DNA of 64,000 nt from Acidobacteriota bacterium (GTDB taxonomy: Bacteria > Acidobacteriota > Vicinamibacteria > Vicinamibacterales > CAVVIG01), in the NCBI GenBank assembly GCA_003222395.1, contig QHWB01000064.1, forward strand, positions 62,001-126,000, written 5' to 3'. The notes beneath the pieces were generated by a model. It did no database searches and had not been told where the DNA came from. It saw only the letters and a list, made by a program, of their open reading frames with translations. Of this stretch, positions 8,959 to 46,583 are shown in pieces (the first letter of the stretch is position 1; each line of letters begins with the position of its first letter). A program made the position numbers and the translations under genes.

Positions 8959-9019
8959 TGGTAGATCCTACTGGTCGCCAGTCGGCCAATCCGACTGAGT
9001 GAAAGCAAGACCCCCGTTC

Positions 9020-9053
9020 AAACCGTGCGTGCGGATTTCCCGCACACGGCTTA
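9020..9053 (-). ncRNA. Group II intron domain V (outer intron)
   Basis: A 34-nt hairpin on the minus strand with the catalytic AGC near its 5' end, a lower stem CCGTG/CACGG, an upper stem GCGG/CCGC and a GAAA-type loop. Length and layout match group II domain V exactly. It lies 12 nt after the stop codon of the RT C-terminal fragment (stop at 9065), the expected order. Confidence 0.9.
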
Positions 9054-9064
9054 CCAGGCGGTCT

Positions 9065-11045: not shown

Positions 11046-11544
11046 CCTACTTCTGAGCGTAGGGGATGTATCCCTGGCCCAGCTCCTCGACCTGCTCCGC
11101 CGCTTCCCCCTGTGCGCGGCTTTCCCGCGCGCCGAGTACTACCAGCGGATCCGACTTCCACGACAGCGTTGGCCTTCCTATGGATGGTCCTTTCAGTCGG
11201 CCTACTCGATTCACCGTTCAAGACCGTCGTGGATCTCCCAGGTTCCGTGACGCTTCCGTGTCCGCCCGTGCCGTGCTCTCAGACCCCGCCGGAGTCTCCG
11301 GTCCCCTCGCCTCTGGCGGGGACCTACTTGTGCCTTCCAAGTTTTCGACCTTGTCGGCCTCCGGATTCCCGAATCACGAGGCTCCATCGCTTCACTTGCG
11401 TTACGGCCCGGACGTCGCTCGGCCTACGCTTAACTCATGTCGTTACCTCCATGAGCCCAAGGCTCGATTCCAGGTGGAGCGGCTCGTTCTCCTTGCCTGG
11501 GCGGGAATTGCACCCGCTGGAAGCGCCCGGCTTGGCCTGGCGCA
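11046..11544 (-). ncRNA. Inner intron 5' ribozyme region (domains I-III)
   Basis: About 500 bp without a plausible gene. Its position between the GTGCG 5' end and the RT start, and the conserved GGTGCAAT stem near its start, identify it as the structured 5' half of the group II ribozyme. I did not fold it, so domain limits are not given. Confidence 0.6.
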
Positions 11545-12092: not shown

Positions 12093-12620
12093 GCCCTCGC
12101 GCGTCCTTGCGTCCTCGACGTGACCACCGCAGGGGCCCTTCCCTCCCGCCGCGTTCTTCGTCGCGACGATTGCCGGTACTACGACCCCTCGGACGCCCGC
12201 TGCGCACGTCTCGCTTTCGCCATCGGCTTATACGAGGCGCGGTGCCCCGACCTCGGGCCGCGCAGACGGGCCTCTCGTGTTCCACCTCACTCCGTGCATG
12301 CGTGCTGCGCCCTCTACCCCGCCGAGACCTGTTGCGCGACTTCCGGATTCGCGCGCAGCAGGCGTGGCCTTCGCCGCGACATGACCGGCTCGGCTCTCGG
12401 ATTGTGAATCTGACGAGGCTGCAGGCTTCACGTGATGTTGCGGCCCGCGTGCTTGCTTTCTCCGTGGAGACTTTTGACACCCCGCTCGAGCCGCAGGACT
12501 CTCATCCCGCGCTTGGGGTCCGCTACTCGGCGCTCCGGCGCTTACCGAGACGGGACTTGCACCCGTTGGAGGAAGGTAGCGTGGAGCGATGACGCTATTC
12601 ACCGCTCCGTCACGACGCAC
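12093..12620 (-). ncRNA. Outer intron 5' ribozyme region (domains I-III)
   Basis: About 530 bp without a supported gene, between the GTGCG 5' end and the RT start. It contains the stem around GGTGCAAG (12550-12566) and an early hairpin GGAGCG/CGCTCC, both in positions usual for group II domain I. Domain limits were not resolved. Confidence 0.6.
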
Positions 12621-13306: not shown

Positions 13307-14521
13307 ATGATGCGTCCATTCACTTCCACGATTTCTCTCGACGAAGCGCGCCGGCGACTCGACGCCAACGTGCGTCCGATCTCGCGAACCGAGCGGGTGC
13401 GGCTCGACGCCGCGGCGGGACGGGTCGCGGCTGCCGACGTGACGTCTCCGCTCGACGTGCCGCCGTTCGCGCGGTCGGCGATGGACGGGTACGCCGTCGT
13501 CGCGGCCGACACCGCGTCCGCGTCGCGGCACCACCCGGCCGTCCTCGGACTGATCGATCGGATCTACACGGGCCAGCCGTCGGAAGTCGTCGTGACCAAC
13601 GGCAGCTGCGCGGAGATCGCGACCGGCGCCCCGCTGCCGAGCGGCGCAGATGCGGTCGTCATGGTCGAGGAAACGGCGAAGTCGGCGGACGATCGCATCC
13701 ACATCTTCGCGGCCGCCGTGCCGGGACAGAACGTCGGCCGCCGCGGCGCCGACATCCTTCGCGGCGATCGCGTCGTCGCGAGCGGCGATCACCTGACGGC
13801 GAGCCGCGTCGGCGCGCTGGCGGCAATCGGCTGCACCGAAGTCGACGTGTACGCCAGGCCGCGGGTCGCGATCCTCTCGACCGGCAACGAAGTCGTCGAG
13901 CCCGGCGCGCGGCTCGCGCCGGGACAGATCTTCGACGTGAACCGGTTCACGCTGGCCGCGATCGTGTCGGCGCACGGCGGCGTTGCCGAATCGCACCGGG
14001 CCGTGCCCGACACCGTCGCCGACCTGGCCGCGGCCCTTGATGCCTGCGCCGGCGCGGACCTCATCGTCTTCTCCGGCGGCAGCTCGGTCGGCGAGCGCGA
14101 TCTCATCGTCGACGCGATCGCGTCACGCGCTGGCGAAATGATCTTCCACGGCATCGCCGTACGCCCGGGAAAACCGACCGCGTTCGCACGCTTCGGCACC
14201 GCGTCGTTCTTCGGCATGCCGGGCAATCCGACGTCGTGTCTGTCGAACGCATACATCCTGCTCGTGCCGTTTCTGCGCGCAACGGCACGATTGCCGCCCT
14301 ACGCGCCGCGCATCGTGCGTGCGCCGCTCGCGCGCCGGATCGTCTCGGCAGCCGGACGGCATCAGTTCTATACCGTCCGCATCCGCGACGGCGTGGCGCA
14401 TCCCGCCTTCAAGGGGTCGGGCGACATCACAAGCCTCTCGCAGGCCGATGGCTACATTGAAATCGCCGCCGATCAGGACACCGTCGAAGAAGGATCGCCG
14501 GTCGACGTGACCCTTCTCTGA
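13307..14521 (+). CDS. moeA: Molybdopterin molybdenumtransferase MoeA
   Basis: A 404-residue protein of normal MoeA length. It has the N-terminal PFARSAMDGYAV motif, the ATGAPLPSGADAVV segment with VMVEET, the MogA-like domain with ILSTGNEVVEPG, FSGGSSVGERD and the GMPGNPTSC loop, then the C-terminal beta-barrel (GSGDITSLSQADGY). MoeA inserts molybdate into adenylylated molybdopterin, so it works directly after MoaB. The ATG follows the heptamer array with no Shine-Dalgarno. A second, octamer array lies directly after the stop. Confidence 0.96.
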   Translation: MMRPFTSTISLDEARRRLDANVRPISRTERVRLDAAAGRVAAADVTSPLDVPPFARSAMDGYAVVAADTASASRHHPAVLGLIDRIYTGQPSEVVVTNGSCAEIATGAPLPSGADAVVMVEETAKSADDRIHIFAAAVPGQNVGRRGADILRGDRVVASGDHLTASRVGALAAIGCTEVDVYARPRVAILSTGNEVVEPGARLAPGQIFDVNRFTLAAIVSAHGGVAESHRAVPDTVADLAAALDACAGADLIVFSGGSSVGERDLIVDAIASRAGEMIFHGIAVRPGKPTAFARFGTASFFGMPGNPTSCLSNAYILLVPFLRATARLPPYAPRIVRAPLARRIVSAAGRHQFYTVRIRDGVAHPAFKGSGDITSLSQADGYIEIAADQDTVEEGSPVDVTLL

Positions 14522-14524
14522 ATT

Positions 14525-14668
14525 GGCTAATTGGATAATCGGGTAATCGAGTAATTGGGTCGATGATTCATTACCCGATTACCCGATTACCCGATTACCC
14601 GATTACCCGATTACCCGATTACCCGATTACCCGATTATCCGATTACCCGATTACCCGATTATCCGATT
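14525..14668. repeat. Palindromic octamer array downstream of moeA
   Basis: Twelve consecutive 8-bp units occupy 14570-14665: ATTACCCG ten times and the variant ATTATCCG twice, with a partial unit after. Upstream (14525-14558) about four degenerate inverted units (for example CGGGTAAT) can pair with the direct units. The array fills the gap between the convergent moeA and zinc-ribbon genes, ending 3 bp before the latter's stop codon, and could act as a two-way terminator. Any ORF through it is an artefact. Confidence 0.92.
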
Positions 14669-14670
14669 CC

Positions 14671-44964: not shown

Positions 44965-45183
44965 TTGAGCAAGGACGATCTGATTGACATGCAGGGTACC
45001 GTGGTGGCGGTTCACAGCGGCGGACTTTACCGCGTGCAATGCGACGCTGGCCACGAGGTGCTGGCCCAGCTCAGCGGCCGCATGCGTCGCTTCCGCATCA
45101 AAGTGGTGCCGGGGGATCGAGTCACCGTGGGCGTCTCGCCGTACGATCCAGTCCGCGGCATCATCACGTTCCGCGCCCGCTAG
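44965..45183 (+). CDS. infA: Translation initiation factor IF-1
   Basis: A 72-residue S1/OB-fold protein starting at TTG 44965. The sequence MSKDDLIDMQGTVVAVHSGG, VLAQLSGRMRRFRIKVVPGD and GIITFRAR is IF-1 throughout. AAAGGA about 11 nt upstream serves as ribosome binding site, and CATAAT at 44932-44937 is a plausible -10, so this mRNA has a normal leader. It is followed 15 bp later by a DEAD-box helicase, an arrangement that would couple two translation/RNA functions. Confidence 0.95.
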   Translation: MSKDDLIDMQGTVVAVHSGGLYRVQCDAGHEVLAQLSGRMRRFRIKVVPGDRVTVGVSPYDPVRGIITFRAR

Positions 45184-45197
45184 AACAGAAACCAGTT

Positions 45198-46583
45198 TTG
45201 AATTCCAATACAACCGATCGATCCCAGGGAAAACGGGGACCTCGCCGGGGTCCGCGCCGTGGCTCGCGGCGGCCCGGACATACTCATGGCGGCAGCCAGG
45301 GTGTGGCGCGGCCCGTTCAGGGCCGCGAGGACGGCGGGCCTGAAAGGTCCTCTGCGCACAGCGCTCCCGCGCTCGAGGCCACGCCGTGCGACTCCACGCC
45401 GGTACCGTTCACATCGCTCGGCCTCGATGCGCGTCTGCTCGAAGGCGTCCGCGATCTCGGGTTCGTCGAAACGCGGCCGATTCAGAGCGCCGTCATTCCG
45501 TTCGCCCTGGCCGGGCACGATCTGATCGCGTGCGCCGAGACCGGCACCGGTAAGACCGCTGCCTTCGTCGTGCCGACGCTGCAGTGGCTGGTGAATGCGG
45601 GAGCACCGCTAAAGGCCTGCGCTAGGGATGCGCGGGAAACGACTATGGACGCGCGAGGATCGACGGCCGAAGCGGTAGCGCAGTCCTTTAGCGCTGCCAA
45701 ATCGCGCGTGCTCGTGCTCGCGCCGACGCGCGAGCTCGCCGTGCAGATCGAAGACGAGATCCACGGCCTCGCGTACCACACGACCGTCACGAGCGCCGCG
45801 GTCTACGGAGGCGTCGAAATGGGCGCGCAGGAACGTGCGCTCAAGGCCGGCGTCGATATCATCGTCGCCACGCCGGGGCGGCTGATGGATCACATGCGCC
45901 AGCAGAACGCCGACCTGAGCGCCATCGAGCTGCTCGTGCTCGACGAAGCCGATCGCATGATGGATATGGGCTTCTGGCCCGACGTCCGCCGCATCATCGC
46001 GGCGCTGCCGACGGTGCGACAGACGCTGCTGTTCTCTGCGACGATGCCGAACGAAGTCGTGCGCGACGCGCTCGAGATCACGCGCGACGCGAAGTACGTG
46101 CAAATCGGTCAGCGCAGCGCGCCGCCGAAGAGCATCACGCACCGCGTCGAGCACGTCGCGTCGGGCGAGAAACTGAAGTGGCTGATCGAGCATCTACGCC
46201 GTCCCGAAGGCCCGGTGCTCGTCTTCACCCGCACGAAGATCGGCGCCGATCGCCTCGCACGGCAGCTCGCCTCCGCCGGCGTGCGCTGCACAGCGTTGCA
46301 CGCCAATCGGAGCCAGGATCAGCGGCGCATCGCCGTCGAGGGATTCAAGGGCGGCCGATTCAGCGTCCTGGTCGCGACCGACATCGCGGCGCGCGGACTC
46401 GACATCGACGCCATTCACACCGTCATCAATTACGAAGTTCCGGATTCCGCCGAGACATATGTGCACCGCGTCGGGCGCACCGGCCGCGCCGATGAGGTGG
46501 GACAAGCCATCACGCTCGTGGCGCCCGAGGAGCGCCGCGCGCTCGGCTATGTGGCGAAGGCCATCGGCGTTCGCTTAGAATAA
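45198..46583 (+). CDS. DEAD-box RNA helicase (RhlE-like) carrying two inserted palindromic elements
   Basis: A 461-residue helicase, taken from TTG 45198 because the reading frame upstream overlaps infA; the start is uncertain. Motifs: TSLGLDARLLEGV and TRPIQ (Q motif), AETGTGKT near residue 113, PTRELAVQ, DEAD near 248 in VLDEADRMMDMGF, SAT, TRTKIGADRLARQL, ATDIAARGLD and HRVGRTGRA. The N-terminal ~55 residues are low-complexity and partly encoded by a family C element. Residues ~135-167 (LKACARDARETTMDARGSTA) interrupt the helicase core between motif I and PTRELA and are encoded by a strong palindrome; frame is kept. RNA unwinding, perhaps in ribosome or cold-stress roles, is the family function. 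Confidence 0.92.
   Translation: MNSNTTDRSQGKRGPRRGPRRGSRRPGHTHGGSQGVARPVQGREDGGPERSSAHSAPALEATPCDSTPVPFTSLGLDARLLEGVRDLGFVETRPIQSAVIPFALAGHDLIACAETGTGKTAAFVVPTLQWLVNAGAPLKACARDARETTMDARGSTAEAVAQSFSAAKSRVLVLAPTRELAVQIEDEIHGLAYHTTVTSAAVYGGVEMGAQERALKAGVDIIVATPGRLMDHMRQQNADLSAIELLVLDEADRMMDMGFWPDVRRIIAALPTVRQTLLFSATMPNEVVRDALEITRDAKYVQIGQRSAPPKSITHRVEHVASGEKLKWLIEHLRRPEGPVLVFTRTKIGADRLARQLASAGVRCTALHANRSQDQRRIAVEGFKGGRFSVLVATDIAARGLDIDAIHTVINYEVPDSAETYVHRVGRTGRADEVGQAITLVAPEERRALGYVAKAIGVRLE
45299..45358. repeat. Family C palindromic element, copy 1, in helicase N-terminal coding region
   Basis: Two hairpins in a row: CGCGGCCC-GTTCA-GGGCCGCG, then GGGCC-TGAAA-GGTCC with one G-T pair. On the other strand the 60771-60838 element shows the same order, loops (TTTCA, TGAAA) and flanking TGTGG. 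It is read through in frame by the helicase. Confidence 0.7.
45607..45693. repeat. Family F palindrome inserted in frame in the helicase core
   Basis: Left arm CGCTAAAGGCCTGCGCTA (45607-45624) and right arm TAGCGCAGTCCTTTAGCG (45676-45693) are inverted repeats matching at 17 of 18 positions, separated by 51 bp. The element adds about 30 codons to the helicase without breaking the frame or adding a stop. Confidence 0.85.

Follow-up and report, generated by a model that had tools for sequence, protein, structure and literature searches.

Relation to described repeat elements

GTAG-headed REPs are short repeats with a stem of 6-13 bp that are linked to RAYT genes and lie mostly between genes (Di Nocera et al. 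2013, PMC3733652). In the passages of that paper used here, REP dimers are described with the GTAG either inside (TT) or outside (HH), and dimers within genes are reported to add 20-30 residues to the product, RNA helicases of Opitutus terrae being among the hosts. The same passages record that recB carries different REPs at nearly one place in two Xanthomonas species, and judge most N-terminal REPs to be extragenic. REPs in frame within tnpAREP genes (subclass 2.4) are described in the parts of PMC6006769 used here, where cleavage and rejoining of REPs by the E. coli TnpAREP is also cited. The RPE sequences of Rickettsia conorii that were examined end in CGTC, and CGTC repeats are given as not associated with transposase genes (PMC3733652, same passages). 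Finally, an RU-2 element lies within the predicted signal peptide of a Yersinia pestis ORF (Delihas 2007, PMC2759123, in the passages used).

The locus described here is an inverted repeat within a DEAD-box helicase gene, found in a 64-kb stretch of DNA (the window) from an Acidobacteriota genome. It consists of two degenerate REP elements of the GTAG type, arranged tail to tail; very probably such pairs have been mobilised by RAYT transposases and survive in genes only where they are in frame and in tolerant loops. The helicase pair agrees with the REPs of PMC3733652, as far as these are described in the passages used, in being GTAG-headed and in lying in frame within an RNA helicase gene; copies of its family were seen beside RAYT genes in two relatives. 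Since GTAG REPs inside genes, RNA helicase genes included, were already on record in 2013, the insertion is a further case of a known type. It appears to differ in its consensus and host group. The tnpAREP case (PMC6006769, in the parts used) likewise has a REP in a protein gene, with the frame intact and in a tolerated place, but there the host gene is the transposase itself, whereas the present hosts are unrelated to the REP. The original prediction had compared the palindrome to the RPE and had named Rickettsia as the group in which palindromic elements inside protein genes are established. The likeness holds in that palindromic repeats lie in frame inside many unrelated protein genes. However, each arm is a GTAG-headed REP hairpin of a kind found beside RAYT genes, and the helicase element is not an RPE, because its head is GTAG and the RPE of R. 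conorii ends in CGTC; moreover, in-frame palindromes have been published outside Rickettsia, the Opitutus helicases included (PMC3733652, passages used). In the open-licence literature, nothing was found on the present REP family or on REP-derived signal peptides in Acidobacteriota.

A REP pair within the helicase gene

The features of the locus, in coordinates of the window, are as follows.

45378..46583 (+): DEAD-box RNA helicase core, frame open from 45039, Pfam PF00270 and PF00271
45603..45697 (+): tail-to-tail REP pair, which adds ~31 residues in frame to the loop joining motif I and the PTREL motif
45603..45625 (-): REP 1, reading CTAGCGCAGGCCTTTAGCGGTGC, with CTAG in place of the GTAG head; its + strand encodes APLKACAR
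45626..45674: spacer of 49 nt separating the two REP tails
45675..45697 (+): REP 2, GTAGCGCAGTCCTTTAGCGCTGC, GTAG kept, 19/20 fixed consensus positions; encodes VAQSFSAA

A short frame just upstream of the helicase, at about 44965-45183, presumably encodes translation initiation factor IF-1, which it resembles.

The palindrome was first reported with 18-nt arms (17 matches) and a 51-nt loop, in frame between the ATP-binding motif and the PTRELA motif. These figures proved exact on recheck of the sequence, and the ORF check found the frame open throughout. The inverted repeat extends further, to 22-nt arms at 45603-45624 and 45676-45697, with 20/22 positions paired (91% complementary) around the 51-nt loop. 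The peptide encoded by the insert, APLKACARDARETTMDARGSTAEAVAQSFSAA, lies between GTGKT and PTRELA. Since the arms belong to a dispersed REP unit, described below, each arm is one REP, and the two form a pair with their GTAG ends inward. The stems are decayed in both REPs; in REP 1 the hairpin is partly lost, with several stem pairs gone. The copy in the helicase is probably old and immobile, because REP 1 lacks the GTAG head as well as these stem pairs. The spacer is overlapped by a 2 x 21-nt tandem repeat at 45622-45664.

A dispersed family of GTAG-type REPs

No further copy of the arm was found within the window at up to 3 mismatches, nor could the 'family A', whose style had been attributed to the arm, be identified there at that threshold; the arm's family is genome-wide. 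A search of the genome for the arm, suggested in the original prediction, indeed revealed a repeated and dispersed family. Its consensus, derived from copies read in the own genome (G000), is GTAGCGCAGNCCTTNAGGNCTGC, in which a GTAG head is followed by a 7-bp stem with a 4-nt loop. The string TAGCGCAGNCCTTTAG has 21 exact matches in the 7.74-Mb genome (reversed control, 0), GTAGCGCAGNCCTTTAG has 111 matches at up to two mismatches vs 20 in the control, and the full consensus has 79 copies at one mismatch or fewer (control, 0). Consensus matches are present in 25 of 60 genomes, own included (24/59 relatives), some of them with only one or two. In a draw of 297 genomes from the phylum, the exact consensus was found in one, the own genome; this limits the spread of the family only loosely, because 20 of the 24 REP-bearing relatives were outside the draw and the other four (G033, G039, G048 and G055) have one-mismatch copies only.

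The family shows the properties of GTAG-type REPs: a short palindrome with an unpaired GTAG at one end, present in many dispersed copies that are mostly intergenic (10 of 148 examined clusters were gene-internal) and often paired. The folding energy of a consensus copy is -13.3 kcal/mol (z -3.62). Support for the hairpin also comes from covariation in 162 REPs, picked on their 5' half in loci taken from four genomes. Positions 10 and 19 are the two places in the stem that no consensus pattern constrained; they were Watson-Crick in 141 of the 162 and G-T in 6 (chi-square p 4e-21). The remaining stem columns are less informative because the searches that brought in the loci had fixed them.

A REPIN consists of two inverted REPs with conserved spacing and the GTAG ends outward. 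Head-to-head pairs in these genomes resemble REPINs in their tight spacing, 12-16 nt in 23 of 31 pairs (fetched loci of G000, G017, G025 and G009). The helicase element is of a different build: its GTAG ends point inward, its spacer is 49 nt, and in such inward pairs the spacers vary, from 7 to 118 nt in the fetched loci of the four genomes. Outside open upstream frames, 14 nt was the commonest head-to-head spacer. Spacer lengths of 1 mod 3 were seen in 9/14 pairs lying upstream in an open frame vs 3/16 elsewhere.

RAYT transposase genes

Matches to PF01797 (RAYT) were found in 43 of the 60 genomes, own included. The own genome has one such gene (L107:795-2056). It is surrounded by about 20 REPs of a sister family, GTAGCGCGAGSCTTTCAGSCGAGCG, in a REPtron-like arrangement: upstream there are 15 in tandem and 2 inverted, and downstream at least 3 inverted ones. 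It was rejected as the cognate transposase of the present family, since this sole match sits among a different REP type. In two relatives, a RAYT gene does lie beside REPs of the present family. The G025 gene is flanked by them on both sides (18-19/20); it matches just profile positions 6-86 of 121 and looks frameshifted. In G033, whose genome holds 35 family copies at one mismatch, one copy (19/20, with a GTGG head) is close to one end of a RAYT frame of 172 residues. The RAYT gene of G036 lies among a sister repeat at 17/20. In all, the scan covered 30 RAYT loci out of a larger set of matches and allowed up to 4 mismatches. When its hits at four loci were read and rescored, L129 and L136 reached 18-19/20, L133 had a sister repeat at 17 and L126 had nothing at 17 or more; no other locus with a family REP at 18 or more of 20 was noted among the 30 read.

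The helicase loop across relatives

Helicase matches at E <= 1e-60 were obtained in 57/60 genomes, own included, some of them being paralogues only. Thirty helicase loci were aligned, and the loop was readable in 23 of 27 same-family genomes; those left out were G023, where the locus is cut at this point, and G001, G013 and G024, which had no orthologue locus. All residues invariant in the alignment are retained in the own-genome protein. The insert residues, which had been thought absent from the family pattern, are indeed missing in most close homologues: the loop is much shorter, 6-23 residues, in 17 of the 23, and measures 31-45 residues in six (G000, G016, G026, G025, G011 and G012). The own loop is 35 residues long in the same cut as used for the tree.

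Among the 23 loops, clear REPs were found in those of G000 (19/20) and G016 (20/20), the latter with three REPs in frame. The G012 loop has an eroded REP (15/20, a score reached by 0/200 shuffles); in the next 900 nt of the helicase gene, no orthologue ever rose above 14/20. The long loops of G025 and G011 hold no convincing REP, so the loop also lengthens without one. An eroded REP suspected by eye in the G011 loop was discarded, as its 13/20 was matched by 22/200 shuffles, and the best matches in the G017 and G025 loops (13/20) are likewise within the shuffle range (9 and 15 of 200). The best inverted repeat of G004 pairs at 14/16, vs a maximum of 13 in only 20 shuffles. In G026 the loop carries a perfect palindrome with 16-nt arms, different in kind from the present REP. 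This palindrome is itself dispersed, with 84 matches in G026, 39 in G016 and 19 in G024, all of the same genus, and only 3-6 in each of four other genomes; the counts include both strands of the palindromic query. G026 is a near sister of G016 in the tree, on short branches (support 94/78). Unlike in the cases in the passages of PMC3733652 used here, a single helicase loop is occupied by unrelated palindromes in genomes that are sisters. The nearest named relatives are Acidobacteriota MAGs, with Vicinamibacterales and Luteitalea represented; they overlap in part with the genomes compared here, the loop peptide of L214 being identical to that of G026, and were not counted as additional evidence.

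In no relative were the insert residues seen without the palindrome, the observation that the original prediction had named as speaking against it; G016, whose residues match closely, has canonical REPs. The borders of the insert nearly coincide (marked by slashes) in G000, LVNAG / APLKACAR...VAQSFSAA / KSR, and in G016, LLTD / AALKGCAT...VAQAFRPA / HSR. In the tree, the long loops are scattered among short ones and the forks between these lineages are poorly supported. With a weak tree and almost coincident borders, the insert may stem from repeated insertion or from a single old one. A single insertion in an ancestor shared by G000 and G016, with loss or replacement elsewhere, would fit the near-identical borders; we nevertheless regard it as somewhat unlikely, since G026, the sister of G016, has another repeat in its loop and members with short loops occur throughout the clade of 9 rows, though with poor support at the forks between these lineages.

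REPs within other protein genes

REPs of the family also lie in frame in diverse other protein genes. Clusters in frame within genes numbered 4/69 in the own genome, 3/40 in G017, 1/20 in G025 and 2/19 in G009. These totals cover only the clusters that were fetched and lay at a sufficient distance from the ends of contigs or loci, and 20 stretches were taken from each of G025 and G009. The calls come from a home-made codon model, for which the window served as training set. The four cases in the own genome are the helicase, a PEP carboxylase, a GH38 mannosidase and an FMN oxidoreductase; an asparagine synthase is also among the hosts. PEP carboxylase orthologues were found in 9 of 40 genomes, own included, and those of G017, G020, G009, G015 and G034 are without the REP residues. 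In an Lhr-type helicase, G017 and G025 share the position of a REP pair and differ in its spacer, and the G017 gene has a second REP site; the two G017 pieces have a Pfam assignment.

Some further in-frame repeats were seen at these loci. In L001 (own genome C1:153221-156236, minus), the FMN oxidoreductase frame continues through 16 copies of GSASLSGER, all in frame; these represent tandem units of the REP family of the own RAYT (16 matches at up to 3 substitutions). The Lhr helicase piece of L341 (G017 C213) has a further in-frame, repeat-like GLRQGYGGPPKLHAKAEAGRHR, possibly of another palindrome family, and a similar-looking stretch, AKASAVRRSFSEGG, occurs in L344.

REPs at N-termini

Several REPs are located at the N-termini of apparent secreted proteins, where they are read as A(A/G)LK(G/A)CAT or VAQ(A/P)F(R/G)(P/A)A. 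REPs just upstream of or at a gene start were in phase 0 in 35/69 cases (binomial p 0.002), an excess driven by G000 (23/42) and G017 (9/16), not by G025 (0/3) or G009 (3/8). By a simple rule, itself uncalibrated, 16 of the 148 clusters fall within a signal peptide, all of them in G000 and G017 and none in G025 or G009. Thirteen of the 16 lacked an alternative downstream start under this rule, which rejected a plausible downstream ATG in at least two of the 13 (L010 and L331) and misses cases seen by eye, including the G000 copy of the gene described next.

The best case is an amidohydrolase-like protein, matched in 10 of 40 genomes, own included; the part scanned gave no Pfam match, and the name is our reading. 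In G000, G024, G020 and G017 the REP peptide directly precedes the conserved mature start (G000, ..VVVSVAQAFGPAFAQQN; G024, ..VVAQAFRPAAAQQN). The orthologues of G009, G016, G040, G002, G018 and G028 have REP-free signal peptides that end at a similar place. Further along, the G017 copy contains a stop in frame, and a second G017 gene (L428, the gene of L331), with its REPs upstream of a plausible ATG, is ambiguous. Whereas N-terminal copies are mostly judged extragenic in the passages of PMC3733652 used, here, to judge from the sequences, they apparently are translated signal peptides in at least one orthologue group. The RU/ERIC elements (PMC2759123) are similar in that part of a predicted signal peptide comes from a small mobile repeat; they differ in their size of 103-168 bp, with few examples, and a RAYT link is unmentioned in the passages of that paper used.

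One might go further and regard the REP as domesticated into a reusable protein-export module, with the tolerant loops of housekeeping enzymes, such as the helicase, as its second niche. One frame from either strand (AALKGCAT reverse, VAQAFRPA forward) would supply signal-peptide parts of many secreted proteins, and selection for secretion would therefore help to keep a non-autonomous hairpin. We think this unlikely. Should the signal-peptide pattern hold, this group would have coding REPs at N-termini, a position mostly regarded as extragenic, and export signals would have a source in mobile repeats.

Origin and retention of the helicase insert

The structure model suggested at the outset puts the insert in a predicted disordered loop. 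In the AlphaFold model (32 sequences, mean pLDDT 84.6), the single segment with pLDDT <50, residues 76-105, is the REP-encoded insert. Foldseek confirmed the DEAD-box fold, with TM-scores of 0.47-0.69 by query length among the 50 matches listed. The best-scoring solved chain is DDX3X, and the aligned DDX3X also has a long stretch at the insert site. For the helicase protein, the insert is most likely near-neutral.

The reading that we prefer is that of mobile REPs filtered by their effect on the host gene; we infer both the transposition by RAYT and the number of independent insertions. The REPs would be non-autonomous single-strand hairpins, moved now or formerly by RAYT (Y1/HUH, TnpA_REP-like) transposases. 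Their insertions would scatter widely, and those inside genes would persist only if the combined length preserves the frame, if read-through is free of stops (A-x-L-K-x-C-A-T in reverse, V-A-Q-x-F-R-x-A forward) and if the site tolerates extra residues, with frame-breaking or core insertions being removed by selection. The helicase loop between motif I and PTREL would be such a tolerant site; palindromic repeats of at least two kinds have entered it in this family of genomes. Because some relatives lack the insert, some have another palindrome in this loop and some carry candidate transposases, frame filtering, site tolerance and re-use can be tested. The locus is a clear example from nature of how a mobile hairpin of bacteria becomes part of a protein.

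Alternatively, the pair may have been co-opted, such that regulation of the helicase depends on a hairpin in the mRNA or on the added loop, for instance through the helicase acting on its own transcript, or that the loop serves as an RNA- or protein-binding arm. The occupation of the same loop by unrelated palindromes in G016 and G026 and the long stretch in DDX3X are in keeping with such a role, and as RNA the whole REP pair folds into a long stem of -42.5 kcal/mol. However, this fold is only moderately above shuffles (z -1.83; 11/200 at least as good), the loop is short in 17/23 same-family helicases, and the stems have decayed in REPs whose like also occur in unrelated genes, so that we consider co-option very improbable. 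A chance or codon-driven palindrome in a fast-evolving linker, GC-rich and with a tandem repeat though this linker is, can be dismissed, as in the 300-nt stretch around the palindrome the 20/22 pairing was reached by 0/100 dinucleotide shuffles (best 18) and 0/200 synonymous-codon shuffles (best 19), and the arms come from a family dispersed through the genome.

Other features of the window

Three Rfam group II intron matches lie on the - strand of the window, at 8974-9054, 11274-11510 and 12433-12568. At 14521-14669 there is an array of the 8-nt repeat ATTACCCG in 12.4 copies, and the stretch before this array pairs with it as inverted repeats of ~40 nt.
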